From Pseudomonas saudimassiliensis (GTDB lineage Bacteria; Pseudomonadota; Gammaproteobacteria; Pseudomonadales; Pseudomonadaceae), in contig NZ_LK391969.1 in NCBI RefSeq assembly GCF_000939975.1, positions 310,001-374,000 of the forward strand: 64,000 bases of DNA, read 5' to 3'. The position numbers and the translations under genes were made by a program. The notes under the pieces are model-generated. The model was not told where the DNA came from, did no database searches, and was given only the letters and a program-made list of their open reading frames with translations. Positions 9,258-32,397 of this stretch are shown piece by piece. Positions within the stretch are counted from its first letter, which is position 1; each line of letters begins with the position of its first letter.

Positions 9258-10034
9258 ATGGCCATTGATGATCCCCGTTTCGGTGGTATAGCACGGCTCT
9301 ACGGTACCGAGGCGCTCGGCCGGCTGCAGGCCAGTCATGTGGCGGTCGTCGGTATCGGCGGGGTGGGCAGCTGGGCGGCAGAAGCATTGGCGCGTACCGG
9401 GCTGGGACGCATCACCCTGATCGATATGGATGATATCTGCGTCACCAACACCAACCGCCAGTTGCCGGCCATGAAGGGCAATATCGGTCGGTTGAAGGTC
9501 GAGGTCATGGCGGAACGGTTGCAGGCCATCAACCCCGCCTGCGAAGTGCGGCCGATCATGGGCTTTGTGACGCCGGACACCCTGGCCGACTACATCACCG
9601 ATGACATCGATTGTGTGGTCGATTGCATCGACAGTGTCGCCTCCAAGGTCGCGCTGATCGCCTGGTGCCGTCGCCGCAAGATCGGCATCGTGACCACCGG
9701 CGGGGCCGGCGGCCAGATCGACCCGACCATGATCAAGGTCGCGGACCTGTCGAAAACCGTGAACGACCCGCTGGCTGCCAAGGCCCGCTCACTGCTGCGC
9801 CGGGATCACAACTTTCCCCGCGCTGACAGCAAACGTAGTTTCGGCGTGCCCTGCGTGTATTCCACCGAGCAACTGCGCTACCCCAAGCCCGATGGCTCGG
9901 TGTGCCAGCAGAAAACCTTTGTCGGCGAGGGCGTGAAGCTGGACTGCTCCGGCGGCTTCGGCTCGGTCACCATGGTCACCGCCACCTTCGGCATGGTAGC
10001 GGCCTCGAAGACGGTGGAGCGGCTGCTGCGCTAG
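9258..10034 (+). CDS. tcdA: tRNA threonylcarbamoyladenosine dehydratase TcdA
   Basis: A 258-residue E1-like adenylating enzyme that converts t6A to its cyclic form ct6A in ANN-decoding tRNAs. The ATP-binding glycine loop is GIGGVGSW near residue 33, and the segment GVPCVYSTE carries the conserved cysteine. The ATG at 9258 follows a GAGGTG ribosome site. An in-frame start at 9219 would add 13 atypical residues and overlap a TATACT -10-like sequence (9225-9230). The gene stands alone. Confidence 0.93.
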   Translation: MAIDDPRFGGIARLYGTEALGRLQASHVAVVGIGGVGSWAAEALARTGLGRITLIDMDDICVTNTNRQLPAMKGNIGRLKVEVMAERLQAINPACEVRPIMGFVTPDTLADYITDDIDCVVDCIDSVASKVALIAWCRRRKIGIVTTGGAGGQIDPTMIKVADLSKTVNDPLAAKARSLLRRDHNFPRADSKRSFGVPCVYSTEQLRYPKPDGSVCQQKTFVGEGVKLDCSGGFGSVTMVTATFGMVAASKTVERLLR

Positions 10035-15694: not shown

Positions 15695-16263
15695 GGCTTG
15701 AGCCTGCTGCCGTCACCGGGCGTGTCACCGAGATCATCCGCATCGGTGTCCGGCCGCAGGATCGGTGGCTCGACAATGATTTCCTGATCCGACGAGGACA
15801 CGGGCTCGGTTGTGGTAGTCGGCGCGGTCTCTTCCACAATGATCACCGGCTCTACCACCGCGGGCTCCGCTGGAACATCCGCCGCGGGGGTGTGGGTGTC
15901 CGGCACCACCGGCGTTACCGGGGGCACTGGCGCCGCCTCGGCGGGATCGACAACCACCGGCTCCTGCGCCGGGCGCGGTTGCCACTGGGCGTCCTCGTCG
16001 GGCCATTCCATGAAGGGCCAGGGCTTCTCTTCCGCGGCACCGGTGACATAACGCCCCATCTGCCAGGCGTACTGCGACAGGCTGTTGCCAAAACCGGCCA
16101 GTTGCGCGTTGGGCTCGCCGGTAAACAGCCGGAACACGATCTGCAAAACGAGGATGGCCGCCAGCAATACCTCGACCACCTGCCAGGCCAGGGCGAACAA
16201 CAGGGTGTAGATCAGACGCAGCCAGAAGTCGGCGGAGGTGATGTTCTCTTTGAAAGCGTTCAT
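15691..16263 (-). CDS. DUF4389 membrane protein with Pro/Val/Glu-rich tail
   Basis: A 190-residue protein. Residues about 15-50 form a hydrophobic membrane region ([11 protein letters not shown] and [12 protein letters not shown]), and [16 protein letters not shown] is the DUF4389 hallmark. From about residue 90 a low-complexity acidic tail rich in Pro, Val, Glu and Thr extends to the end, longer than in minimal family members. The ATG at 16263 overlaps the gpsA stop region by four bases. Function is unknown; it sits between gpsA and sixA, as I recall for Pseudomonas. Confidence 0.82.
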
Positions 16264-17309
16264 TTCTGCTCCTTGGTCAATGGGGTACACGCCATGAAGG
16301 CGGAAAACTCGACATCGTGTTTCTGCTCAGCGCTCATCAGCCGGCCGATGACATCCGTCAACGGCTGCTGCTCGAAGATGATGGCATGCAGGCCAGCCAC
16401 CAATGGCATATAGACCCCCTCATCCAGGGATTTCTGCCGGAGCACCTTGAGGGTATTCACCCCTTCGGCAACCTGGCCGAGCCGGGCAATGCTCTCTTCC
16501 AGCGTCTGCCCTTTGCCCAGCGCATGGCCCACCTGATAATTGCGAGACATCGGCGAGGTACAGGTGACAATCAGGTCGCCTACCCCGGCCAACCCCAGGA
16601 AGGTCAACGGATTGGCCCCCATATGCACGGCAAAGCGGGTCATTTCCGCCAGTGCCCGGGTGATCAGCATGCTCTTGGTGTTCTCACCTACCCCCATGGC
16701 CGCCGCCATACCGGAGATGATCGCATAGACGTTCTTCAGCGCCCCGCCCAGCTCGACCCCATAACGGTCCCGGCTGGCATATACCCGCAGACTCTTGCAG
16801 CCCAATACTGCCTGGACCTGGACGCTCAGCGCATCGTCTTCGGTGGCCACCACGGTCGCGGTCAAGGCGCCGGCGGCCATTTCCCGGGCGAGGTTGGGGC
16901 CGGACAGTACCGCCACGCGAGCTTCGGGCACTTCCTGCTCGACGATCTGGCTCATCATCAGAAAGCCCGGCTGCTCGATGCCCTTGGTGGTGCTGATCAC
17001 CCCTTTACCCGCCAGCCCCGGGCCGATCTGCTGCAGCACGCTGCGAAAGGCACTACTGGGAATGGCCAGAAAGACCAGTTCCGCTGCGTTCAGCGCCGCG
17101 GCCATATCGGTGCTTATGATCAACTGCGGGTCGAGTTTTATGCCCGGCAGATAACGGGTGTTTTCGCCCCGTTCACGCATCTCTCTGGCCTGCTCTTCGT
17201 TACGCAGCCACAGCGTTACCGGAACGCCATTGTTGGCCAGCAGATTGGCCAGCGTGGTACCGAAACTGCCGCCGCCCAGGACGGCGACGGGGACCTCGAG
17301 GTCGGTCAT
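16260..17309 (-). CDS. gpsA: Glycerol-3-phosphate dehydrogenase [NAD(P)+] GpsA
   Basis: A 349-residue cytoplasmic enzyme reducing dihydroxyacetone phosphate to sn-glycerol-3-phosphate, the backbone of phospholipids. The nucleotide-binding motif is LGGGSFGT; the catalytic lysine lies in [12 protein letters not shown], and the C-terminal domain includes [14 protein letters not shown]. The ATG at 17309 (MTDLEVPV) is the family start; the frame extends upstream without support. It heads a coupled unit with the DUF4389 gene and sixA, and the TonB receptor is divergent 125 bases away. Confidence 0.95.
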
Positions 17310-17434
17310 GCAAATTCCCTTAAGCCAGATAACAGCCGTCAGTATATGTCTGCGAACAATAACAGCGAAGCGCAGATGAAAAAACCTGGCTGGCCCGTTA
17401 CTATGCACCCTCGCCACATCTGACGCGCCAAGTC

Positions 17435-19624
17435 ATGCTCATACAGCCACAACCGCCACGTGCCTTCCTGACAGCTCTGATGCTCTTGCTGCCCTCAATG
17501 GCTGCGGCAGAAAGCCTGGGAGAGCTGCACCTGCCCACCGTTCTCAGTGCCACCCGGCTGAAACAGCCGCCTGCCGAGATTCCCGGCAGCATGACGGTAC
17601 TCAATCGTGAGCTGATCCAGGCCAGCGGCGCGCGCAGCGTGCCGGAGCTGCTGCGACTGGTGCCCGGGATGCACATCGGTTATCGACGGGGCAATCAAGC
17701 CAACGTGAACTACCACGGCACCAATGTCACCGAGGCCAGACGGTTGCAGGTACTGGTGGATGGGCGCTCGGTTTACCGCTCAGGGTTGGCCACGGTGGAT
17801 TGGGCCGAGTTGGCTCTGAACATCGAAGACATCGACCGCATCGAAGTCTTTCGCGGTCCGAATACCGCCGCGTACGGCGCCAATGCCTTGATGGGGGTGA
17901 TCAACATCATCACCCGACTACCGCTGGAAACCCAGGGCACCTCTCTGAAATATACCCACGGCAAGCGTGGCGTCCGGGACTGGTATGCCAGACATGGCGG
18001 CGGGGATATGCAGCATAGCTGGCGCTTGAGCCTCGCCAGCCAGCAGGATGACGGGTTTGACCATGACGAGGATGGCAATGACTATCGGGACAGCCTGCGC
18101 TCCAGCCGGATGAACCTGCGTCATCTGTGGAATTTGACCCCCAACCAGTCACTCGACTGGCAATTGTCAGCGAGCGAAACCAGTCGCCAGCACCCCTACG
18201 ACTACAGCACCTACCTGGACCATGAGGATGGCAATTCGCTCGTTGATCGCGCTATCAACGCGCATCAACCCGACGCCGACGTGCGCGGACGGGACTTTGC
18301 CACTCAGGGGCTATGGAAGCTCGATTTCAACCCTGACCATCAGCTGCAGGTCCAGGCGCACGCCCAGCATCTGGAGCGGCTGCGGGATTGGCGGGTGTGT
18401 GATTCCCCCGTGGTCTTTTCCGATCGGCTGCGGCAACTCAACTCCCTGAGCCAGCTGGCGGCACGCCGGGTCAGCAGCTACTTGGACAAACCCAACCGCC
18501 GCGAAACCCTGGACCAGTACATCGACCGCTACCTCAGTAGCGCCGGCGAGACCTATACGCCGCAGATGCAGGAACTGGCCAACCAGCTGCTGGCAGAGAC
18601 CACCCAGTACCGCGGCAGCGAGCCGGCCTGCTGGGATATCAACGAGAACATCCGGGAAACGCGGTTCCAGGTAGAGGTTCAGGACTCCCTGCGCCTTTCT
18701 CCGCGGCTGCGCCTACTCAGTGGCGGCAGCTATCGCTACGACCGGGTCGACTCGGAAACCTACTTCTCCGGTGCCCTGGACAACACCATTGTCCAGCTGT
18801 TCAGCAATCTGGAATACCGCCCCCATCGGCGCTGGTTGTTCCAGGCCGGCGGCATGTATGAAGACGACCACCTGATCGGCGGCTCCTTCTCGCCCCGACT
18901 GGCCACTCACTTCTTCATCGCACCCCAGCACAGCTTGCGGGCCGTCTATGCGGAAGCGGTGCGCTCCCCGGACATGTATGAAAACAACGCCGACTGGCGT
19001 TATCAGGTGCGCAACCTCAGCGGGCCGGTCAGCGGACCGGTAACCCTGTACAGCCACGCCCAGGGACCCGGCGACCTGGACCAGGAGCGCATGCGTTCCC
19101 GGGAGCTCGGCTATCATGGCAGCTTCCACCAGTTGGGCCTGCAGGTCGATGTTCGGGTCTTCCATGAGCGCATCACCGGCATGAACAGCGAACCCCTGAA
19201 GATCGACAACTTCCTGCCCAACAACGACTCACAGATCCGCTTCAAGGGTGTCGAGACCGAGCTCGACTGGCAGGCAACCCGCGCAGATCGGATTCGGCTG
19301 ACCCACTCCCGTATCGATTACGACGCTACCAGCCGTTACGACCAGCGTCTCACGGCTCACCATTCAGGCAGTGTCGCCTGGCTGCACCAGTGGCCGCATG
19401 GGGTCAATACCAGCCTTCTTTATTACGGCGCCGATCAGCTTAACGAACGGCGTTTCGAGCGCATCGACTCACGTATCGAGAAGAAACTGAATTTCCGGGA
19501 CGACACCAGTCTGACCTTCGCCCTGGTCTGGCAATACCGGCTCGATAATGAAGCCCTGACCTGGGATGAAAATTTATATGACAGTCCCAGTCACCTTTAC
19601 CTCAGTGCTGGGCTAAACTTCTGA
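17435..19624 (+). CDS. TonB-dependent outer-membrane receptor
   Basis: A 729-residue receptor with a signal peptide ending near AAA (about residue 25), a plug domain (about 40-155, with SVPELLRLVPG, RIEVFRGPNTAAYG and GVINIITR) and a 22-strand-type barrel ending in the outer-membrane signature LYLSAGLNF. The plug resembles receptors of the BtuB/CirA and catecholate type, but no ligand can be assigned. Two cysteines far apart in an extracellular-looking region (DWRVCD and EPACWD) could form a disulfide. No Fur-box-like sequence stood out upstream. A periplasmic binding protein and a hybrid kinase follow on the same strand. Confidence 0.9.
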   Translation: MLIQPQPPRAFLTALMLLLPSMAAAESLGELHLPTVLSATRLKQPPAEIPGSMTVLNRELIQASGARSVPELLRLVPGMHIGYRRGNQANVNYHGTNVTEARRLQVLVDGRSVYRSGLATVDWAELALNIEDIDRIEVFRGPNTAAYGANALMGVINIITRLPLETQGTSLKYTHGKRGVRDWYARHGGGDMQHSWRLSLASQQDDGFDHDEDGNDYRDSLRSSRMNLRHLWNLTPNQSLDWQLSASETSRQHPYDYSTYLDHEDGNSLVDRAINAHQPDADVRGRDFATQGLWKLDFNPDHQLQVQAHAQHLERLRDWRVCDSPVVFSDRLRQLNSLSQLAARRVSSYLDKPNRRETLDQYIDRYLSSAGETYTPQMQELANQLLAETTQYRGSEPACWDINENIRETRFQVEVQDSLRLSPRLRLLSGGSYRYDRVDSETYFSGALDNTIVQLFSNLEYRPHRRWLFQAGGMYEDDHLIGGSFSPRLATHFFIAPQHSLRAVYAEAVRSPDMYENNADWRYQVRNLSGPVSGPVTLYSHAQGPGDLDQERMRSRELGYHGSFHQLGLQVDVRVFHERITGMNSEPLKIDNFLPNNDSQIRFKGVETELDWQATRADRIRLTHSRIDYDATSRYDQRLTAHHSGSVAWLHQWPHGVNTSLLYYGADQLNERRFERIDSRIEKKLNFRDDTSLTFALVWQYRLDNEALTWDENLYDSPSHLYLSAGLNF

Positions 19625-19684
19625 ACCTAACGGATTGACAGGGATCGTCATCGTGCACCAACTTCACCGGGACCGGACCAGGCC

Positions 19685-20569
19685 ATGCGTATGCCTCGTC
19701 TGCTAATGCTGGCTCTGGCCTGGCTGCTCTCCATGGGTAGCTGGGCAGACACCATCGGGGTCGTCATCCCGCAGGATACCGTCCTGACGCGCAGTTTCGT
19801 CGAGGCGCTGGCCAGTCGCATGCCTGCGGACAGGCTCGAGGTCCATGTGCTGGGCATCCCACAGGTTCCGGATTCAGCCTCCCTGTTGGTGACCATGGGC
19901 CAGGAAGCCTTGCAGTGGCGCCTGGCGCAATCGTCCCAGATCCCGACGATTGCCACCTATGTCACCCTGGACGGGCTGCGCGAGCTGCACGACAGCGTGC
20001 GCCCGTCTTCGGTGCAGATATTGCTGGCCAGTGCCAAGCCCGACCGGCAATTGCGACTGGCTCAGCTGCTCATCCCGCACATGAACACCGCAGGACTGTT
20101 GTTCAGCGAGCAGCAGCAATGGCAGCAGCGCTTTTGGCAGGCCGCCGCCGCCCGCCAGGGCGTAACCCTCTATGCCCGCGGCGTCGCTCATGCGGATGAG
20201 CTGCCGCGCCGACTGAGTGACGTACTGAATCAGAGTGATGTGCTGGTGGGGCTGGATGATCCGGCCCTCTATAACGCCGAGAACCTCAAGACGCTACTGC
20301 TCACCAGCTACGCCCGGCGGCGGGTGCTGATCGGGCCGTCGGCGCCCTTTATCGCCGCTGGTAGCCTGAGTACCACCTATAGCACCCCGGAAAACATGGC
20401 CGAGAGCGTCATCGCCGCCTGGCGGCAGCCGTGGAAGCCCGCCGCCATCCGCTATCCTGAACAGTTTTCCGTACTGAGCAACGATCAGGTAGCCCATTCG
20501 CTTGGCTTGCCGCCCCCCGATGATGGAGAGCTGATGCGCCGCATCCTTGCCATGGAGCAAACCCGATGA
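19685..20569 (+). CDS. ABC-type periplasmic substrate-binding protein without transporter genes
   Basis: A 294-residue protein with a clear Sec signal peptide (cleavage near SWA-D, residue 22). The body resembles the ABC_sub_bind family, in particular [24 protein letters not shown] and [14 protein letters not shown]. No ABC permease or ATPase is adjacent. Its stop codon overlaps the start of the hybrid kinase gene by four bases, and the TonB receptor gene ends 60 bases upstream. The arrangement suggests that it presents a ligand to the kinase sensor domain rather than feeding a transporter; this is inference. Confidence 0.85.
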
Positions 20570-22467
20570 ACATCTTCCGCCGTGGCAGCATTAACCGCCG
20601 TCTGATCACCATCGCCCTCCTCCCGGCCACCCTGCTCGGCGTAGTACTGCTTGCCTACTTCACCCATGTGCGCCTCGAAGCCCTGAACCAGGAAATGGAA
20701 ACCACAGGGCAATTGATCGCCGACCAACTGGCGCCGGCAACCGAGTACGGCATCATCACCGGCAATATGGAGTTGCTGGAAAGTCTGATCCAGGGATCAT
20801 TGAAGATCCCCCATGTATACAAGGTGGAGGTGCTCGACCAGCACGGCAAGTTGCTGGCGATGGAGCAAAAGCAGCCTGCTGAAACCGGCCCGCTGCGGCT
20901 GTTCCATGCCGATATCGAGCGTCAGCGCATTCCGCTGCACTATGACCTGTTCCTGCTCAACACGCCGGCCACCGAAGCGGACCAAAGCCAGAAACTGGGG
21001 ATGGTCAGGATCAGCCTCAGCTACCAGCCCTTCGTCGAGCGCCAGCGCAGCATCCTGCTCCGCAGCCTGCTGCTCGGGGCGCTGGTCCTGCTCGCTGCGC
21101 TGTTGTTATCGACCCGCCTGGCCCGGGCGTTCGCCTTACCCCTGGTAGAAATGCGCAGGGCCGTCCAGGCGCTGCAGGACGGGCGTCTGGACACCCGGTT
21201 GAAGGTGCGCGAGCGCAACCAGATCGGCGAGCTGATGAATAACATCAACCGTCTGGCCACTACGTTGGAACAGACGCAGGCCCAGCAGCAGCAAGCCATG
21301 ACGGAACTCATCAATGCCCGGGAGCAGGCCGAACAGGCCAACCGTGCCAAGTCGGACTTCCTCGCCATGATGAGTCACGAACTGCGCACCCCAATGAACG
21401 GCGTGATGGGCATGTTGCAACTGTTGGAGACCACCGACCTGACCAGCGAGCAGGTTGAATATTGCCGGATAGCCAGCGAATCTACCGACCACCTGTTGAA
21501 GGTCATCAACGATATTCTCGACCTGTCCCGGGTCGAGCGGGAGGCCTTCGAACTCGAGCACATCCCCTTCAGCCTGCCCGCGCTGCTGGAACGGACCGCG
21601 GTTGCCTTTGAACACGCCACCAGCCAGAAGGGCCTGACCCTCGACACCGAATGGCATGGCCACCCCGCAGCGCCCGAGGTCATGGGCGATCCAACGCGGC
21701 TACGGCAGATCCTGGTCAATCTGCTGGGCAACGCGCTGAAGTTCACCGAGCACGGCCGGATCGCCCTGCGTGCCCGCTGGCAAGGGAATCCCGAAGGCAT
21801 GCTGCAGCTGGTATGCGAGGTGACTGACAGCGGCATCGGCATGGATCCGCAGCGCCTGGAACATATGTTCGACGCCTTCCAGCAAGGCGATAGCAGCACG
21901 TCACGGCGCTTCGGTGGCACCGGCCTCGGCCTGTCCATTGCCCGCAATTTTGCGCGCAAGATGGGCGGCGACCTGGCTGCCACCAGTCAGCCGGGCGCAG
22001 GCTCCTGCTTCACCTTGACCATTCCCCTGGCACTCTCCGACGGCCAGCGGCCTGGGCAGCAAGCCCAGCTCCCGGAGGTCGCCCGCCCCAGCGCCCTCCC
22101 GGTGTTGCTGGTAGAGGACAACCCGGTGAACCAGATGGTGATAGAAGGCATGCTGCGCAGCCTGTCCCTCCCGGTAGTGATTGCCGATGATGCGCAACAG
22201 GCACTGCAACTGCTCAAGGACCCGAACCAACCCTTCTCGCTGATCTTCATGGATATCCAGCTGCCGGACATGAACGGGTTCGACACCTTCCAGTGGTATC
22301 GGCAACACTGTGAGGAGCGTCACCTGCAGCCGCGACCCTGTATCGCGCTGACTGCCAGCGCCTCCGAGGAGGACCGCCGACGCAGCGAACAAGCCGGCAT
22401 GCAGGGCTTTCTCAGCAAACCGGTCACCCGCAAGGCGCTGCGGGAGGTACTCGACCGCTGGGCCTGA
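20566..22467 (+). CDS. Hybrid sensor histidine kinase (HAMP-HisKA-HATPase-REC, no Hpt)
   Basis: A 633-residue inner-membrane kinase. Membrane segment 1 spans about 14-32, a periplasmic sensor about 34-160, and membrane segment 2 about 162-182. HAMP (about 185-240) and a short coiled coil lead to HisKA with phospho-acceptor H271 in [12 protein letters not shown]. The HATPase contains [10 protein letters not shown] and the G boxes DSGIG and GGTGLGLSI. The receiver (about 512-630) has D563 in [11 protein letters not shown] and K618. There is no C-terminal Hpt domain, so phosphate must leave through a separate Hpt protein. The location next to fabA corresponds to PA1611 of P. aeruginosa, as I recall the map. 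Confidence 0.93.
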
Positions 22468-22580
22468 CCGCTGCATCAATCCGGCTGATCGACTGGCATT
22501 TCGTAACATCCGGGTAATGGATTCATCCGCGGCAACGCGCCACACTGATGCCTCTTCGTCTTTTCAGGAATTCACCAGGC

Positions 22581-24149
22581 ATGAGCGCTGTAGCCGATTA
22601 CCCGATCACGCTGGAATCACCCTTCACTACCCTGCCCGAACTGCTGGCCCTCAACGCCAGGCACCGGCCCGATCATCCTGCCGTCATCCAGGGGCCTCAC
22701 CATCTCAGTTACGCCGAACTCGATGCCCAGGTCGATCGAGCTGCCGCGGCGCTGCAACGTGATGGGCTGCAGCCCGGGGAGGCTATTGCCATCTGCGCCG
22801 CCAACTCGGCGCCCTACGTGGTTTTATTCCTCGCTGCCCTGCGCGCCGGCATGGTGGTCGCTCCCCTGGCGCCCTCGTCCACCGCCGCCAGCCTGGTGAC
22901 CATGGTGAAGGATTCCGCAGCGCGGCTGCTATTTGTCGATCAGCCCGTTGCCGAGGCGCTCGAGCCGGTAGCTGGGCAGCTGGAAACCCCACTGCTGCAT
23001 CTGGATGACAGCCAGCCAGCTACGGGTTTCAACGCGTGGCTGGCGGACACCCCGCCCGCACCGGTCGAGCTAACGCCCGAGACCCTGTTCAATGTGATCT
23101 ACTCCTCAGGCACCACCGGGGAGCCCAAGGGCATCGTCCATGACCACCGCATGCGCTGGGCGCATATCCAGCGTGGTATCGCCTTCGGCTACGGTCCCGA
23201 ATGCGTCACCTTGATGTCGACCCCGCTGTACTCCAACACCACCCTGGTGTCCTTTCTGCCGACCATCGGCCTGGGCGGCACCCTGGTGCTGATGAGCAAG
23301 TTTGATGCAAAGACCTACCTGGAGCTGGCCGAGCAGCATCGCGCCACCCACACCATGCTGGTGCCGGTGCAATACCAGCGGATCATGAGCCGTGACGATT
23401 TCGACCGCTATGACCTGTCCAGTTTCCAGATGAAGTTCAGCACCAGCGCGCCCTTCCATGGCGAGCTCAAGGCGGACGTGCTGGCGCGCTGGCCCGGCGG
23501 GCTGGTGGAATTCTATGGCATGACCGAGGGTGGTGGCTCCTGCATGCTGCTGGCCCACCAGTTCCCCGACAAGTTGGACACCGTCGGTCGCCCGCTGGAT
23601 GGCCATGACATGCGCGTCATCGATGAGGACGGCAACGAGCTTCCCCACGGGGAAATCGGCGAAGTAGTGGGTCATTCTGTGGCCATGATGAGCGGTTACC
23701 TGAACAAGCCCGAAAAGACCGCCGAAGCCGAATGGTACGACCACACCGGCAAGCGCTTCATCCGTACCGGGGATGTTGGTCGCTTTGATGAAGAAGGCTT
23801 TCTCACTTTGATGGACCGGCGCAAGGACATGATCATCAGCGGCGGTTTCAATATCTACCCCAGTGATCTGGAGGCTATCCTGCGGCAACATCCGGACCTG
23901 CAGGAAGTCACTGTCATCGGCGTACCCTCCACCAGTTGGGGCGAAACGCCGGTCGGCTATGGGGTACTCAAACCGGGAGCGGATACCCCCGCGGAGCAGA
24001 TCCTGCAGTGGTTCAACGGCCAGGTGGGCAAGACCCAGCGCCTGAATCGGCTGATCCTTACCGATGAGTTGCCGCGCAGCGCCATCGGCAAGGTACTCAA
24101 GCGGGAACTGCGCGATCAGTTCCACGGAGAGTTCGGCACCCTCGATTGA
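22581..24149 (+). CDS. Class I AMP-dependent acyl-CoA synthetase
   Basis: A 522-residue ANL-superfamily enzyme that should activate a carboxylic acid via acyl-AMP. All core motifs are intact: YSSGTTGEPKG, FYGMTEGGG, RTGDVGRFDEEGF, the hinge RRKDMIISGG and the catalytic-lysine region AIGKVLKREL. The ATG at 22581 follows an AGGAATTCACCAGG stretch; the frame also extends to 22548. It lies between the hybrid kinase and fabA, an unusual neighbour for fabA, and is followed by a strong hairpin. Substrate chain length cannot be read from sequence. Confidence 0.88.
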   Translation: MSAVADYPITLESPFTTLPELLALNARHRPDHPAVIQGPHHLSYAELDAQVDRAAAALQRDGLQPGEAIAICAANSAPYVVLFLAALRAGMVVAPLAPSSTAASLVTMVKDSAARLLFVDQPVAEALEPVAGQLETPLLHLDDSQPATGFNAWLADTPPAPVELTPETLFNVIYSSGTTGEPKGIVHDHRMRWAHIQRGIAFGYGPECVTLMSTPLYSNTTLVSFLPTIGLGGTLVLMSKFDAKTYLELAEQHRATHTMLVPVQYQRIMSRDDFDRYDLSSFQMKFSTSAPFHGELKADVLARWPGGLVEFYGMTEGGGSCMLLAHQFPDKLDTVGRPLDGHDMRVIDEDGNELPHGEIGEVVGHSVAMMSGYLNKPEKTAEAEWYDHTGKRFIRTGDVGRFDEEGFLTLMDRRKDMIISGGFNIYPSDLEAILRQHPDLQEVTVIGVPSTSWGETPVGYGVLKPGADTPAEQILQWFNGQVGKTQRLNRLILTDELPRSAIGKVLKRELRDQFHGEFGTLD

Positions 24150-24351: not shown

Positions 24352-24867
24352 ATGTCAAAACAAAATGCGTTCAGCCGGGAAGATCTGCTTAAGTGCAGTC
24401 GTGGCGAGTTGTTCGGCCCCGGTAACGCACAGTTGCCAGCCCCCAACATGCTGATGATCGACCGCATCACCCACATCAGCGACACGGGCGGCCGCTTCGG
24501 CAAGGGCGAAATCGTTGCCGAGCTGGATATCCATCCCGACCTGTGGTTTTTCGCCTGCCATTTCGAAGGCGATCCGGTGATGCCGGGCTGCCTGGGCCTC
24601 GACGCCATGTGGCAGCTGGTTGGCTTCCACCTGGGCTGGCTGGGCTATGAAGGCCGCGGCCGCGCCCTGGGTTCGGGCGAAGTGAAGTTTTTCGGTCAGG
24701 TTCTGCCAACCGCGAAAAAAGTCACCTATACCATACATATCAAACGCACCATCAACCGCGCCCTGACCTTGGGCATTGCCGATGGCAGCATGGCGGTCGA
24801 TGGCCGCGAGATCTACACCGCGGAAGGTCTGCGGGTGGGCCTGTTCACTTCTACTGATAGCTTCTGA
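24352..24867 (+). CDS. fabA: 3-hydroxydecanoyl-ACP dehydratase/isomerase FabA
   Basis: A 171-residue hot-dog-fold enzyme that dehydrates 3-hydroxydecanoyl-ACP and isomerises trans-2- to cis-3-decenoyl-ACP, the entry point of anaerobic unsaturated fatty acid synthesis. The active-site His70 (in [14 protein letters not shown]) and Asp84 are both present. The ribosome site is the AGGAG of GCAGGAGCC. fabB follows after 11 bases, the usual fabAB operon. Length matches the family. Confidence 0.97.
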
Positions 24868-24878
24868 GGATCACCACT

Positions 24879-26096
24879 ATGCGTCGTGTCGTGATTACCG
24901 GTATGGGCATTGTTTCCTGCCTCGGCCAGGATCTGGAAAGCGTGGCTGCCAGCCTGAAAGAAGGCAAGTCGGGCATTACCTACAACCCTGAATACGCCGA
25001 AATGGGTCTGCGCAGCCATGTTTCGGGCAGCGTGAAAATCGACCTGGAGGCTGCCATCGACCGCAAGGTCAAGCGCTTCATGGGCGATGCCGCCGCCTTT
25101 GCCTACCTGTCCATGCAACAGGCAATTGCCGACGCCGGCCTGACTGAAGAGCAGATCAGCAACCCGCGCACCGGCCTGATTGCCGGTAGCGGTGGCGCCT
25201 CCACCCTCAACCAGATGGAGTCGGTCGACATCCTGCGGGAAAAGGGCGTGAAGAAGATCGGGCCGTACCGCGTGCCGCGCACCATGGGCAGCACCGTTTC
25301 CGCCTGCCTGGCGACCCCCTTCAAGATTAAGGGCATCAACTATTCGATCTCCTCCGCCTGCGCCACCAGTGCCCATTGCATCGGCAGCGCCATGGAGCAG
25401 ATCCAGTTGGGCAAGCAGGATGTGGTGTTTGCTGGCGGCGGCGAAGAGGAGCACTGGAGCCAGTCCATGTTGTTCGACGCCATGGGCGCGTTGTCCACCC
25501 AGTACAACGACACCCCGGAAAAGGCTTCCCGTGCCTACGACGCCAAGCGTGACGGTTTCGTCATTGCCGGCGGTGGCGGCATGGTGGTGGTCGAGGAGCT
25601 GGAGCACGCCCTGGCCCGCGGTGCGAAGATCTACGCCGAAGTGGTCGGCTATGGCGCCACCTCCGACGGCTACGACATGGTCGCCCCCAGCGGTGAAGGC
25701 GCGGTACGCTGCATGCAGCAAGCCATGGCGACCGTCGAGGGCACCATCGACTACCTGAACACCCACGGCACCTCCACCCCGGTGGGCGACGTGGCCGAGC
25801 TCAAGGCCATCCGTGAAGTGTTCGGCGACAAGGCACCGAAGATCAGCTCCACCAAGAGCCTGTCGGGCCACTCGCTGGGCGCCGCGGGTGTCCAGGAAGC
25901 CATCTACTGTCTGCTGATGATGCGCGACAACTTCCTCGCCGCCTCGGCCAACATCGAAGAGCTGGACGAGAACGCTGCTGATCTGCCGATCCTGCGTGAG
26001 CGCCTGGACCAGGCCGTTGACCTGATCATGTCCAACAGCTTCGGCTTCGGTGGCACCAACGCCACCCTGATCCTCAAGCGCTGGAACGGCGCCTGA
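24879..26096 (+). CDS. fabB: 3-oxoacyl-ACP synthase I FabB
   Basis: A 405-residue beta-ketoacyl-ACP synthase that elongates cis-3-decenoyl-ACP and keeps the double bond. The Cys-His-His triad is visible: C161 in SSACATS, a histidine in [11 protein letters not shown] and another in [10 protein letters not shown]. The conserved C-terminal loop SFGFGGTNA is intact. It is co-transcribed with fabA and closed by a strong terminator. Confidence 0.97.
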
Positions 26097-27831: not shown

Positions 27832-28338
27832 ATGGCTGACCGACCTACTCTGGATGACGAAACCCTCGCCTTTGCCGAGCGCATGTTCGACCTGGCCCGC
27901 CATGGCGACGCCGAGCAGCTGCAGAACATGCTGAAAGCTGGCCTACCCGCCAACCTGCGCAACAGCAAGGGTGACAGCCTGCTGATGCTGGCCTGCTACA
28001 ACGGTCACCTGGATGCCGCCCGCGTGCTGCTCGCCCATGGCGGCGACCCGGAGCTGGCAAATGACCGCTGCCAGACGCCCCTGGCGGGCGTCGTGTTCAA
28101 GGGCGACATGGACATGCTGGAGCTGCTGCTGACCAGCGGTGCCGATGCCAATGGCTGCCCAACCGGGGGCAAGCCACCCCTGATGTATGCCGCCATGTTC
28201 AATCGGGTGGACATGCTGGAGCGCCTGCTGCAGGCCGGCGCCGACCCACAGGCGACCGATGCCGATGGCAAGACGGCGCTCGAACTGGCCCGCACCATGG
28301 ACGCCGGTGACGCCGTCACCCGCCTCGAACAGCTCTGA
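27832..28338 (+). CDS. Ankyrin-repeat protein
   Basis: A 168-residue protein made largely of four ankyrin repeats (about residues 20-160), with consensus pieces such as GDSLLMLACYNGHLDAARVLL, here divided by short loops, and TALELAR near the end. There is no signal peptide, so it is probably a cytoplasmic protein-interaction module. The ATG at 27832 is chosen because the acidic lead-in to repeat 1 starts there; an upstream ATG at 27778 lacks support. The FAN1 gene starts 92 bases downstream on the same strand. Confidence 0.87.
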   Translation: MADRPTLDDETLAFAERMFDLARHGDAEQLQNMLKAGLPANLRNSKGDSLLMLACYNGHLDAARVLLAHGGDPELANDRCQTPLAGVVFKGDMDMLELLLTSGADANGCPTGGKPPLMYAAMFNRVDMLERLLQAGADPQATDADGKTALELARTMDAGDAVTRLEQL

Positions 28339-28429
28339 GAGATCGGTTGCCCTGCGCGCCGCTCCCGCGCAGGGCTCCATCTGTCACCCAGGGCTTGAAG
28401 CGCGGGCGGTAGCGCAGGCAGAATACTGT

Positions 28430-30091
28430 ATGCCCAACCAGCCCACCTCTCCAGCTACCGCGAACCAGCCGGCGCCGTTCTACTACCTGCACAACTTCCG
28501 GCAGGCAACGACCTGGCTGCGGCAACGCTATGCCGACCTGCTCAACGACGAGGAACAGGTCTTCCTGACCTGCTTCGATGCCCTGCCCCAGGCCTCGCAG
28601 GCGCTGCTGGTCAGGTTGATCATGCGCAAGGGGCCACATTTTCGCAGCAGCCGCCTCAACTATCCGGAAATCGGCGATCTCGACGCCGCCGCCGCGCCCT
28701 TGCTGGAACTGGGCTGGCTGGATGATTGCCACCCATTGGGCGCCGCCGAGCTGGGTACCTTGCTGCGCCGGGACGAAATCATCGCGCTGCTGTCTCCCGC
28801 GCCTGAGCTGCGCACCCTGCGCAAACCCGAGCTGGTGCAACGCCTGTCGACCGCAACCGAAGCTCGCGGCTTTCACCAATGGTGTCCCGCCAGCCCGGAA
28901 CGCCTGCTGACGCTGCGGATCGGCGACCTGTGCGAACGCCTGCGGCTGATGTTCTTCGGCAATCTTTCCCAGGGGTGGGAGGAGTTCGTGCTCGCCGAGC
29001 TGGGTATCTTCCGCTACGAGCAAGTGGCGCTGACCCCGGAGTCCCGGGGTTTTTCCTGCCGCCTGGATATCGAGTTGTATCGTCACCTGCACCAGTGCCG
29101 CACCCAACTGGAAGCGGGGCAACCCTGCCTGGAGGTACTCGAGTTGCTCGGCCAGCAGGAGTACGCCAATCCCTGGCTGCGCAGCCGCCACGATCGCTTG
29201 TTGTTCGACCTCGCCCGCCAATTGGAGCGGGAAGCAGACCTGCAACAGGCCCTGGCGTTATACGCACGCAGCGGCTGGAGCGGTGCCCGCCAGCGGCAGA
29301 TTCGTATACTCGAGAAGCTGCAGCAGCATGAACAGGCCTGGGCGTTGGTCCAGGATTCCCTCGATGCCCCAGAAAGCGAGGCGGAGCTGCAGCTCGCCCT
29401 GCGGGTGCAACGACGCCTGGCGCGCAAGCTCGGCCAGCCGGCTCACCCGCCAGCTGTTGATGGCATCACCACGCGGCTCGACCTGAACCTCCCGGGTCCC
29501 CACGCGCTGGGCGTGGAGGCTGCGGTACGCGAGCATCTGGATTCACCCCAGGCTCCCGTGCATTACGTGGAAAACAGCCTGATCACCGGCCTGTTCGGCC
29601 TGCTCTGCTGGGACGCCATTTTCGCGCCCCTGCCCGGCGCCTTCTTTCACCCATTCCAGAGCGCCCCAGCCGACCTGCACAGCCCCGACTTCCAGCACCG
29701 GCGGCGTCCGCTGTTCGAGCGTTGCCTGGTCCGACTGGACAGCGATGCCTGGCAGCACAGTATCCGCCGTACCTGGCAGGCCAAGCAGGGCATCCAGAGC
29801 CCCTTCGTCCACTGGTCGCTGCTGACCGAAACGCTGCTGAACCAGGCTCTACAATGCCTGCCGCCCGCCCACCTGCGAGCCTGGTTCCTGCGCCTGCTGC
29901 AAGATATCCGCGCCAATCGCGCCGGCATGCCCGACCTTATCCAGTTCTGGCCCGAGCAGGGCAGTTACCGGATGATCGAGGTAAAAGGCCCCGGTGACCG
30001 CCTCCAGGACAACCAGCGGCGCTGGTTGGAGTTCTGCCATCGCCACGACATGCCGGTCGCGGTCTGCCATGTCCAGTGGGCCAACCCGTGA
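28430..30091 (+). CDS. fan1: FAN1-type VRR-NUC structure-specific nuclease
   Basis: A 553-residue homologue of the bacterial FAN1 nucleases, which cut 5' flaps and process interstrand crosslinks. A SAP-like segment lies near residue 125-140 (LRTLRKPELVQRLS), a helical TPR-like middle follows, and the C-terminal VRR-NUC domain carries PDLIQFW-x-EVKG-type catalytic residues D502, E517 and K519. Spacing matches the D-14-E-x-K pattern known for P. aeruginosa FAN1. The ATG at 28430 gives the family length; the frame is open further upstream inside the ankyrin gene. Its stop overlaps the next start (GTGA). Confidence 0.92.
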   Translation: MPNQPTSPATANQPAPFYYLHNFRQATTWLRQRYADLLNDEEQVFLTCFDALPQASQALLVRLIMRKGPHFRSSRLNYPEIGDLDAAAAPLLELGWLDDCHPLGAAELGTLLRRDEIIALLSPAPELRTLRKPELVQRLSTATEARGFHQWCPASPERLLTLRIGDLCERLRLMFFGNLSQGWEEFVLAELGIFRYEQVALTPESRGFSCRLDIELYRHLHQCRTQLEAGQPCLEVLELLGQQEYANPWLRSRHDRLLFDLARQLEREADLQQALALYARSGWSGARQRQIRILEKLQQHEQAWALVQDSLDAPESEAELQLALRVQRRLARKLGQPAHPPAVDGITTRLDLNLPGPHALGVEAAVREHLDSPQAPVHYVENSLITGLFGLLCWDAIFAPLPGAFFHPFQSAPADLHSPDFQHRRRPLFERCLVRLDSDAWQHSIRRTWQAKQGIQSPFVHWSLLTETLLNQALQCLPPAHLRAWFLRLLQDIRANRAGMPDLIQFWPEQGSYRMIEVKGPGDRLQDNQRRWLEFCHRHDMPVAVCHVQWANP

Positions 30092-32397
30092 ACTACCGCA
30101 TTGCGGTACGCGCGCTGTGTGAGTTCACCGCCCGGGAAGGCGACCTCGATCTGCGCTTCACCCCGGCACCCAGCGCCCAGGAGGGCATGGCGGGCCACCG
30201 GACAGTGGTCGCCCGGCGTGGGCCCGACTACCTGAGCGAGGTCGCCTTGGTCGGCAGCTACCAAGGTCTGCTCGTCGCCGGCCGCGCCGACGGCTATGAC
30301 CCCGCGCTCAATCTGCTGGAGGAAATCAAGACCCACCGGGGCGACGTCAAGCGCATCCCGCACAATCACCGCCTGCTGCACTGGGCGCAGGTGAAGGTCT
30401 ATGGCTGGCTGCTCTGCGCGGAGTACGAGTTAGACGAGATCGACCTGGCGGTAGTCTATTTCAACGTACTCAGCCAGCAGGAAACGCCCTACCGCGAACG
30501 CTTTGGTGCCGCGAGCCTGCGCGAGTTCTTCGAGCTGCAGTGCCGCCGCTTCCTCACCTGGGCCGAGCAGGAAAGCGCCCACCGCCTGGCCCGCGACGCT
30601 TGCCTTGTGCAGCTGCAGTTTCCCTGGCCGTCCTTTCGCACCGGGCAGCGCCAACTCGCCAACCAGGTATACCGCGCCGCCCGGGACGGCCACACCTTGA
30701 TGGCCCAGGCCACCACGGGCATCGGCAAGACCCTGGGCACGCTCTTCCCGCAGCTCAAGGCCTTTCCCGAGCAGCAGCTCGACCGGCTGTTCTTTCTCAC
30801 GGCCAAGACGCCCGGGCGCCAGCTGGCCCTGGATGCCCTGGCCAGCCTGCGCGCGCAGCAGCCAGAAATGCCGCTACGCGTACTGGAGCATGTCGCCCGG
30901 GACAAGGCCTGCGAATACCCGGAGCGTGCCTGTCACGGCGACTCATGCCCCCTTGCCAAGGGGTTCTACGACAAGCTGCCGGCGGCCCGGGAGGCAGCGC
31001 TCGGGCGGCGCTGGCTGACCCGTCAGGCCGTCCGCGACACCGCCCTGGCCCACGGGGTGTGTCCCTACTACCTGAGCCAGGAGCTATGCCGCTGGACCGA
31101 TATCGTGGTGGCTGACTACAACTACTACTTTGATATGACCGCCCTGCTCTACAGCCTGACGGTGGTGAATGACTGGCGAATAACCCTGCTGGTGGACGAG
31201 GCCCATAACCTGATCGACCGGGGCCGCGGCATGTATACCGCTGAGCTCGACCAGGGCAGCTTCAATGCCTTGCGCAAGACGGCGCCCAGCGCACTGAAAT
31301 CGACCCTGGACCGGGTGAGCCGCCATTGGAACCAGCTGCACCGGGACCAGCAGGACGACTACCAGATCCATCCGACGATCCCGGATCTCTTCGTGCTCAG
31401 CCTGCAGAAAGCCGTCAGTGCGATCACCGACCACCTGAGCGACCAGCCGGAGGGCAACGACGCGGCGCTGCTGCGTTTCTATCTGGACGCCATGCTGTTC
31501 TGCCGCCTCGCCGATCACCACGGGCCCCACTCCCTGTTCGATATCACCCGGCTTCAGCTCGGCCGTCGCACCCTGTCGACCCTGTGCCTGCGCAACATCG
31601 TCCCGGCGCCCTTTCTCCGCGACCGTTTTACCGCCGCCCACAGCAGCACCCTGTTCTCCGCCACGCTCAGCCCCCAGCATTACCATGCCGACTTGCTTGG
31701 CCTGCCGGCGGACACCCAATGGCTGGATGTGGAGTCCCCGTTCAGCGCCGAGCAGTTGCAGGTGCGTTTTGTCAGCAACCTCTCGACCCGCTATCAGGAC
31801 CGCGCCCGCAGCCTGCTGCCCATCGCCCAGGTGATGGCGCAGCAGTTTCGCGAGCGCCCCGGCAATTACCTGGCGTTTTTCAGCAGCTACGCCTATCTGC
31901 AACAGGTACTGGATACCTTCCGTGCGAGCTGGCCCGAGATCCCCGTGCGCGAGCAATCACGGCAGATGAATGAAGCACAGCGGGAGGCCTTTCTCGAGGA
32001 ATTCACCGACGACTCCCGCTGCATCGGTTTCGCGGTGCTGGGTGGCGCCTTCGGTGAGGGGATAGACCTGCCGGGCAAGCGCCTGGTCGGCGCCTTCATC
32101 GCCACCCTGGGGTTACCCCAGGTCAACCCGGTCACTGAAGAAGTAAAAAGCCGCATGGAACAGATGTTCGGCCAGGGCTACGACTACGCCTATCTGTACC
32201 CGGGTTTGCAGAAGGTGGTGCAGGCAGCCGGACGGGTCATCCGCACCACCGAGGACGAAGGCGTGGTCTGGCTGCTCGATGACCGCTTCGGCCAGCTGGC
32301 CGTACGGCAATTATTGCCTCAATGGTGGCAGCCCGAGCGGTACCGACTGGAACACCAGCCTGCGCCAGGCACCAGTCAATCCCTGTTTCCCGGATAG
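30088..32397 (+). CDS. Fe-S superfamily-2 helicase (DinG/Rad3-like) with N-terminal PD-(D/E)xK nuclease motif
   Basis: A 769-residue protein. The N-terminal 110 residues carry a RecB-like nuclease pattern: D68 in GRADGYD, E79 and K81 in EEIKT, and Q101/Y105 in WAQVKVYGW. The helicase follows with Walker A ATTGIGKT (208-215), VDEAHN box II and C-terminal motifs including QAAGRVIRT. Cysteines C275, C282, C287, C325 and C334 lie where Rad3/DinG enzymes hold an Fe-S cluster. The start GTG at 30088 overlaps the FAN1 stop. It is likely a DNA-repair partner of FAN1. Confidence 0.9.
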   Translation: MNYRIAVRALCEFTAREGDLDLRFTPAPSAQEGMAGHRTVVARRGPDYLSEVALVGSYQGLLVAGRADGYDPALNLLEEIKTHRGDVKRIPHNHRLLHWAQVKVYGWLLCAEYELDEIDLAVVYFNVLSQQETPYRERFGAASLREFFELQCRRFLTWAEQESAHRLARDACLVQLQFPWPSFRTGQRQLANQVYRAARDGHTLMAQATTGIGKTLGTLFPQLKAFPEQQLDRLFFLTAKTPGRQLALDALASLRAQQPEMPLRVLEHVARDKACEYPERACHGDSCPLAKGFYDKLPAAREAALGRRWLTRQAVRDTALAHGVCPYYLSQELCRWTDIVVADYNYYFDMTALLYSLTVVNDWRITLLVDEAHNLIDRGRGMYTAELDQGSFNALRKTAPSALKSTLDRVSRHWNQLHRDQQDDYQIHPTIPDLFVLSLQKAVSAITDHLSDQPEGNDAALLRFYLDAMLFCRLADHHGPHSLFDITRLQLGRRTLSTLCLRNIVPAPFLRDRFTAAHSSTLFSATLSPQHYHADLLGLPADTQWLDVESPFSAEQLQVRFVSNLSTRYQDRARSLLPIAQVMAQQFRERPGNYLAFFSSYAYLQQVLDTFRASWPEIPVREQSRQMNEAQREAFLEEFTDDSRCIGFAVLGGAFGEGIDLPGKRLVGAFIATLGLPQVNPVTEEVKSRMEQMFGQGYDYAYLYPGLQKVVQAAGRVIRTTEDEGVVWLLDDRFGQLAVRQLLPQWWQPERYRLEHQPAPGTSQSLFPG

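Follow-up and report, generated by a model that had tools for sequence, protein, structure and literature searches.

The question raised by this locus of Pseudomonas saudimassiliensis is whether a TonB-dependent outer-membrane receptor, a lone periplasmic binding protein and a hybrid histidine kinase encoded side by side form a single signal-input unit, and which pathway such a unit would feed. Within the 64,000-nucleotide stretch analysed here (the window), the plus strand encodes in succession the receptor (17435..19624; 729 aa), a periplasmic type-I substrate-binding protein (SBP) with a TrpX/PF04392-like fold (19685..20569; 294 aa) and the kinase (20566..22467; 633 aa), arranged according to Pfam as TM-sCache_4-TM-HAMP-HisKA-HATPase_c-receiver. 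The open reading frames confirmed the layout described in an earlier note on this DNA, with a gap of 60 bases between receptor and SBP and an overlap of 4 bases between SBP and kinase. Upstream lies gpsA on the minus strand (16260..17417; NCBIfam 544 bits for a cut-off of 455), whose boundaries are those of the mechanical open reading frame, the true start probably lying at some coordinate below 17417; downstream, two plus-strand frames (24352..26096) are presumably fabA and fabB, as named from synteny. Both neighbours are conserved, gpsA being present in 80/80 and the window's fabA matched in 79/80 of the loci considered among relatives (80 of 107 loci). Promoter and terminator scans gave results no better than shuffles, and no Fur box was found in the window with up to three mismatches allowed to the consensus, so that iron control of the trio is not suggested.

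The kinase, described in the earlier note simply as a hybrid kinase, is not one of an unknown kind: judged from its sequence, it is a PA1611-type kinase with a GacS-type sensor. The PA1611 REC structures (7c1j/7cfw) were the best of 151 PDB matches to its receiver (80 bits), the gene occupies the gpsA-to-fabAB interval in the window as in the relatives, and PA1611-type kinases form their own clade apart from GacS (18 rows, support 100/100) in a tree of 41 of 54 distant proteins and 13 chosen from GacS loci (L180 skipped; two candidates scored per genome in the GacS-locus search). Pfam revealed no Hpt domain in the window kinase, which separates it from GacS/BarA proper, and membership of the LuxQ family was rejected on a score of 298 bits against an equivalog cut-off of 1200, with a best stretch covering residues 249-630 only. 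The phospho-acceptor His271 (21376..21378) occupies an invariant column in an alignment of 50 kinases (49 of the 54 listed distant proteins and the window kinase), and the receiver phospho-acceptor Asp563 (22252..22254), nearly invariant in the same alignment, lies inside the stretch aligned to the PA1611 REC.

As a consequence of this assignment, work in P. aeruginosa already covers part of what lies downstream (HptB, RetS/GacS/Rsm); two papers report phosphotransfer from PA1611 to HptB and contact with RetS (PMC7467158, PMC4866733). The same genome encodes an HptB (L095:3982-4326), for which the HptB structure 7c1i was the only PDB match at E<=0.001 (65 bits) and next to which no gene partner was seen, a RetS-like kinase and a BarA/GacS-like kinase (L096; 816 bits, where 890 are required for BarA). 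No PDB match was obtained for a second 7TMR kinase (L100). Because a genome with 96% identity to the PA1611 receiver stretch holds the full trio (L194), PA1613-PA1612-PA1611 is likely its P. aeruginosa equivalent, the window receptor and SBP being the probable counterparts of PA1613 and PA1612, respectively. According to the passages seen of PMC3462791, PA1612-PA1611 form one operon co-transcribed with fabAB, to which they are called “seemingly unrelated”, and deletion of PA1611 left fabAB transcription unchanged.

Plug (78 bits) and barrel (64 bits) were the only domains above Pfam cut-offs in the receptor, with no match to an STN signalling domain. Its PDB matches cover mainly the plug of Cir/BtuB/PirA, and identification of a ligand from the receptor was therefore rejected. 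The SBP starts with a hydrophobic stretch that by eye resembles a signal sequence; no Pfam family matched it at E<=1, hence no YfiR domain, and it scored 17 bits against TrpX (NCBIfam NF041285), for an equivalog cut-off of 390. Its predicted model (pLDDT 92) has the binding proteins CD0873, 3lkv and the TrpX-like 3lft as nearest structures and can be aligned to ligand-bound two-lobed binding proteins across almost the entire mature length, LuxP (4yr7) coming at rank 13 (E 5e-7, TM 0.43) through the common type-I fold. By its title 3lft binds Trp, and CD0873, whose ligand is left unnamed there, is a Tyr-binding protein; as identity to these structures is just 12-16%, neither was accepted as the ligand of the SBP and both serve as a lead only. 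Apparent SBP-kinase fusions at two loci (L174, L188) were long open frames produced by overlapping frames, and a putative SBP fusion protein (P0172) appeared by eye to carry out-of-frame receptor sequence ahead of the SBP; all three were set aside.

The description of the SBP as a lone binding protein was borne out at the locus: neither the unit nor the seven surrounding proteins scanned include a permease or ATPase. Five matches to one permease family were found in the genome, together with a TrpXYZ-type permease/ATPase system (L094). The earlier note would have given up its proposal had the SBP been paired with an ABC transporter elsewhere; the sole ABC system found with a TrpX-like SBP is that of L094, which has an SBP of its own, 22% alike to the window SBP over 146 aa (E 0.05). 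A partner among the other permeases is conceivable.

The conservation and co-occurrence asked for at the outset are pronounced, and the other outcome that would have told against the earlier note, a trio not kept in relatives, did not occur. All three genes occur in the same order in 78/80 relatives found by the SBP (80 of 107 loci, some species possibly counted twice among the SBP-bearing loci), which places the trio beyond chance; the receptor was not found in the other 2/80, and the 4-base overlap between SBP stop and kinase start recurs in 75 of the 79 loci measured, one with a broken kinase frame (L051) standing outside this count. Among 119 Pseudomonadaceae genomes (taken to be G000-G118, including 19 without a match), 55 encode SBP and kinase, 0 the SBP alone, 25 the kinase alone and 39 neither (Fisher 1.8e-14, kinship ignored), with two genomes of weak SBP matches (G015 and G088, E about 1e-6) scored as SBP-less and 22 of the 25 kinase-only loci fetched (all except G070, G101 and G115). 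The SBP depends one-way on the kinase: it was always accompanied by this kinase (55/55 genomes), whereas of the 80 genomes that encode the kinase, 25 lack the SBP.

The periplasmic sensor domain of the kinase was placed at residues 34-162 (20665..21051), in agreement with the approximate residues 34-160 proposed before. It has a sequence-profile match to the GacS periplasmic domain 5o7j (E 3e-8); 5o7j is absent among the 50 Foldseek and 50 VIA-align matches listed for the sensor, whose nearest fold is the LapD-type periplasmic domain. Domains of the LapD type are known to bind a protein. The kinase model predicts a helix at residues 28-65 and a turn at 66-67, and the end of this first sensor helix carries the motif E-Y-G-I-I-T-G-N (residues 60-67; 20743..20766), a candidate contact site for the SBP. 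In the form E-Y-G-V-I-x-G-N this motif is intact in 99/101 SBP-bearing versus 3/27 SBP-less kinases. The 27 SBP-less kinases consist of 7 from one genus (g8; 2 of them among the 25 kinase-only genomes) and 20 others, and receptor and SBP are both missing from 27/27 of their loci inspected, while the motif is retained in 3/3 loci with the SBP and without the receptor; among GacS rows in the same comparison, 2/13 have an upstream extension hiding the motif site, and the loose motif pattern applied there had been composed after inspecting the sequences. The sensor motif decays where SBP and receptor are lost, and it tracks the SBP.

Independent losses are few: the best tree contains 7 changes of SBP state, with the motif never opposite in direction, and since only 3 losses fall on well-supported branches the corresponding sign test is not significant (p 0.25). 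When kinases of equal core divergence are compared, pairs of mixed SBP state (SBP-/SBP+) show a more divergent sensor than pairs in which both carry the SBP (SBP+/SBP+), in all five usable bins (those containing at least two pairs of both types). Outside the sensor, 8/218 columns also drop after SBP loss, among them 3/22 in TM2/HAMP and 3/65 in DHp. A mirror-tree analysis by partial correlation of distance matrices over 74 loci gave -0.02 for SBP and sensor, nothing beyond other proteins, all proteins tracking the species tree.

The idea of a sensing unit is partly supported, by an SBP that depends on the kinase and a motif that tracks the SBP. We lean towards the reading that the three genes constitute one signal-input unit. 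The TonB receptor would carry a ligand across the outer membrane, and the SBP would capture it in the periplasm and dock at the far end of the single-Cache sensor, possibly by direct contact around E60-N67. The docked SBP would then switch the PA1611-type kinase in one direction or the other, with phosphate presumably passing from His271 to Asp563 and on to HptB in this species, and the kinase may modulate RetS and hence GacS/Rsm, as reported for PA1611.

Other explanations of the trio deserve weighing against these data. The SBP could be a periplasmic brake or activator acting by titration in the manner of YfiR, with the receptor as an outer-membrane anchor or ligand gauge that would catch or let go of the SBP, and no import of a ligand. 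Loss of the receptor with retention of the SBP at three loci (L003, L036, L150) would fit, as would variants with GGDEF output, recalling YfiN in layout, and the logic is that of YfiB-YfiR-YfiN in the portions seen of PMC4887326; we nonetheless hold this unlikely in view of a receptor with both plug and barrel and of an SBP model that matches ligand-bound two-lobed binding proteins over almost its full mature length.

An uptake route made of receptor and SBP, completed by a permease elsewhere and merely regulated by the kinase, would find a possible partner in the TrpXYZ-type system of L094, to whose fold family the SBP belongs; its chances appear slim, since L094 owns an SBP, and both the company of the kinase in every SBP-bearing genome and the behaviour of the sensor motif speak against it. 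It is also quite improbable that the kinase senses its ligand directly while receptor and SBP merely persist through the stable gpsA-fabAB neighbourhood. The constancy of gpsA, the persistence of SBP-less kinases and a distance test devoid of specific co-variation are what this would predict, but the trio turns up in other genomic settings throughout the class, receptor and SBP are jointly absent from the SBP-less loci, and the motif decays after their loss.

In the distant gammaproteobacterial set (60 of the best 65 SBP places, leaving out G418, G474, G673, G751 and a second copy in G604), the same sensor-HAMP start follows the SBP in 56/60 loci, the receptor is present in 46/60 and both in 43/60. 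The receptor was not found in the other 14/60, one of which (L203) has a contig that begins too near, and no recognised sensor follows the SBP at L217, L229 and L236 despite downstream room; at 4 loci the output is GGDEF with the sensor-HAMP part retained. Many of the SBP-linked kinases have the complete BarA/GacS architecture, in some cases with their genes at the barA/gacS locus itself, and the SBP, with or without the receptor, precedes full-length kinases of this type, some of them in the E. coli BarA/Pseudomonas GacS clade. Neither an SBP nor a TonB gene adjoins E. coli BarA, and the SBP found in the window genome lies away from the GacS-like gene. Tentatively, and with more doubt than conviction, TonB receptor and SBP might be the ancestral input of the gammaproteobacterial BarA/GacS superfamily, kept by PA1611-type kinases, Pseudomonas GacS and E. 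coli BarA being derived orphans that lost the pair along with the E-Y-G-x-x-x-G-N contact motif. In that case the ligand bound by these SBPs would be akin to the GacS/BarA signal that has long been sought.

Should the SBP be the input partner, a purifiable soluble protein that can be screened for ligands would replace a membrane kinase with its difficult assays, PA1612 would gain a role, and TonB signalling, binding-protein-coupled kinases and Gac/Rsm lifestyle control would be joined in one operon. The trio makes the question of the PA1611/GacS/BarA signal testable and may help to find what these kinases sense. None of the cited passages names a signal for PA1611, and a 2020 review whose title calls the GacS signal evanescent has no mention of TonB in its main text as available (PMC7695008). 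Among the matches listed from the main texts of the open literature, in the parts visible, no paper appeared that joins the TonB receptor and the SBP with PA1611/GacS/BarA in a single system.

The closest known system is the PA1611/HptB branch of P. aeruginosa, with a common kinase type, the gpsA-fabAB neighbourhood and HptB, although the passages seen of PMC3462791 do not describe PA1612 or PA1613 as inputs. GacS/BarA have the sensor family in common with the window kinase, which differs by lacking an Hpt domain. The LuxP/LuxQ, TorT/TorS and AioX systems are not known to include a TonB receptor in the unit, and their sensor families differ from that of the window kinase. A periplasmic binding protein is likewise the first signalling component in LuxP/LuxQ and TorT/TorS, and in AioX, according to part of PMC5908839. 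The comparison with LuxP/LuxQ drawn in the earlier note may hold for the way of working but not for family membership, given the LuxQ score. FecA-FecR-FecI also ties a TonB receptor to signalling, whereas the window receptor has no matched STN domain and its partner is a kinase. In Bacteroidetes, one locus can combine SusC with hybrid two-component sensors bearing periplasmic-binding-protein-like domains; in these, kinase and SBP-like part make up one protein, and phylum and outputs differ from those of the trio. YfiBNR differs in its output, which is GGDEF, and has neither an SBP in the place of YfiR nor a TonB receptor in that of YfiB. As in the trio, YfiBNR nevertheless brings together outer-membrane, periplasmic and inner-membrane sensor proteins, as described in the portions seen of PMC4887326.

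The TonB receptor (17435-19624), the lone periplasmic type-I substrate-binding protein (SBP, 19685-20569) and the hybrid kinase (20566-22467), all on the plus strand, form a unit that recurs in near relatives. When species genomes were scanned using the SBP alignment, 107 relatives emerged, of which 80 were examined, and since the SBP was the starting point, the counts at these near loci are conditional on it: the trio is complete and in order in 78/80, gpsA is found in all 80 and fabA in 79, the remaining contig ending before fabA. The SBP and kinase genes overlap by 4 bases at 75 of the 79 loci measured, and the gap from receptor to SBP is 0 to 123 bases in 78 loci. According to an ORF and domain scan of the window, gpsA, a DUF4389 gene and sixA lie on the 5' side of the trio, and an acyl-CoA-ligase-type gene (22548-24149) on the 3' side, followed by a pair which we take, from synteny, to be fabA and fabB. 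The ligase-type gene stands between kinase and fabA at merely 19/80 near loci, the Halopseudomonas-like ones. The gpsA/fabAB surroundings call to mind P. aeruginosa PA1611, placed upstream of fabA in PMC3462791. Farther along the window (28187-32397), a DEAD_2 helicase gene is overlapped by a FAN1-type VRR nuclease gene.

The PA1611 receiver (7c1j/7cfw) was the top PDB match of the window kinase receiver domain. In a tree of 80 kinases, 18 PA1611-type sequences form one clade (support 100/100), separate from 13 Pseudomonas GacS (support 100/96). The sensor profile matched 5o7j, the periplasmic domain of GacS (E 3e-8), further matches being weak (4u64, E 0.03; AnkX chains, E 0.2-0.4). One genome (L194) encodes a receiver 96% identical to the PA1611 stretch together with a complete trio, so that PA1613-PA1612-PA1611 is, judging from sequence, probably the P. 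aeruginosa version of the trio. PA1613 is mentioned in a paper about iron-acquisition proteins (PMC9864456); another (PMC4199492) tabulates it with mutated genes, under the label ‘Membrane proteins’, and counts it among genes hit by several mutations in cystic-fibrosis lineages.

Among 119 Pseudomonadaceae genomes, the kinase is present in 80 and the SBP in 55, every one of which also has the kinase; in another 25 genomes the kinase occurs without the SBP, and 39 lack both (Fisher 1.8e-14, kinship not corrected). In one genus (g8), 25/25 genomes carry the kinase and 18/25 the SBP. The receptor is also absent from all 27 SBP-less kinase loci examined, one of which (L283) keeps a receptor remnant of 42 residues, and it alone is missing, the SBP being retained, at L003, L036 and L150. 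The losses are therefore nested, affecting the receptor by itself or receptor and SBP jointly. A receptor without SBP was not seen in these sets, none of which was gathered by receptor search. At L003, where the receptor gene is lost, a short receptor-C-terminus-like stretch (9800-10000) precedes the intact SBP gene. In genus g18 (e.g. L143), the PA1611-type kinase match stops near residue 495, without receiver domain, and the SBP is retained.

Across Gammaproteobacteria, the SBP was matched (E<=1e-5) in 88/369 genomes and 72/272 genera, the weakest matches being probably TrpX-type paralogues. At another place in the window genome (L094:1855-4568), a TrpXYZ-type ABC system is encoded together with an SBP of its own. 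Among 60 of the 65 best distant SBP places, counting neighbours on the same strand within 1500 bases, the same sensor-HAMP start lies downstream of the SBP in 56, the receptor upstream in 46 and both in 43. Of these 56 proteins, 51 match as kinases, four (L184, L189, L223, L233) are sCache-HAMP-GGDEF proteins, and one (L209) has a frame ending after HAMP. No sensor match follows the SBP at L204, where the contig end is reached; L217, L229 and L236 have room downstream, yet no recognisable sensor protein. Many of the distant kinases are of the full BarA/GacS type, since the 50 scanned, the window's included, comprise 43 with sCache_4 and 39 with Hpt.

At least one of rlmD, cysM, acpS, pdxJ, recO and an exonuclease-type gene (presumed names) is nearby in 32/60 distant loci, and at least two accompany a complete trio in 16/60; rlmD adjoins E. 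coli barA. A clade of 24 (support 97/99) unites Pseudomonas GacS, E. coli BarA, the trio kinases L205 and L210, the SBP-linked L201 and L228 and six SBP-less BarA-like sequences. With the window genome's GacS-like kinase as query, and just two candidates scored per genome, 14 genomes outside Pseudomonadaceae matched at E<=1e-150; the SBP adjoins the match in seven and was not found in seven. Together with the clade membership, this ties the SBP to BarA/GacS-family sensors, PA1611 not being its sole partner. The sensor motif E-Y-G-V-I-x-G-N (residues 60-67), a candidate SBP contact site, reads E-Y-G-I-I-T-G-N in the window kinase; a loose form of this motif, drawn up after the sequences were viewed, occurs in 34/41 distant SBP-linked kinases versus 1/21 SBP-less BarA/GacS, an extension hiding the site in two GacS sequences.

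Elsewhere in the window genome, HptB is encoded at L095:3982-4326 (7c1i as sole PDB match), within a flagellar cluster and flanked by what we presume to be fliJ- and fliK-like genes; no second regulator gene was seen adjoining it at this locus. A GacS-like kinase (L096) scores 816 bits with the BarA model, below the cut-off of 890, and another kinase (L099) carries a RetS-like sensor.

The pairing of SBP and sensor persists where the output module is exchanged (kinase or GGDEF), and this suggests that the SBP's partner is the sensor, of which the SBP is most likely the soluble half. As the earlier note proposed, the TonB receptor would supply a ligand that the SBP captures; the SBP would then signal to the distal end of the Cache domain. 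Because in P. aeruginosa the PA1611 kinase is reported to hand phosphate to HptB (PMC7467158) and to counteract RetS (PMC4866733), the ligand state would reach the Gac/Rsm switch. Against this reading stand the persistence of the kinase without the SBP in 25 genomes, the few independent losses, the receptor not found in 14/60 distant SBP loci, and a distance-matrix test in which nothing specific was found. Binding-protein-coupled kinases, TonB signalling and the kinase itself are already known; as far as the literature searched shows, what is new is an input unit made of three genes, its link with PA1611 as well as with relatives of BarA/GacS, and a sensor motif decaying upon SBP loss.
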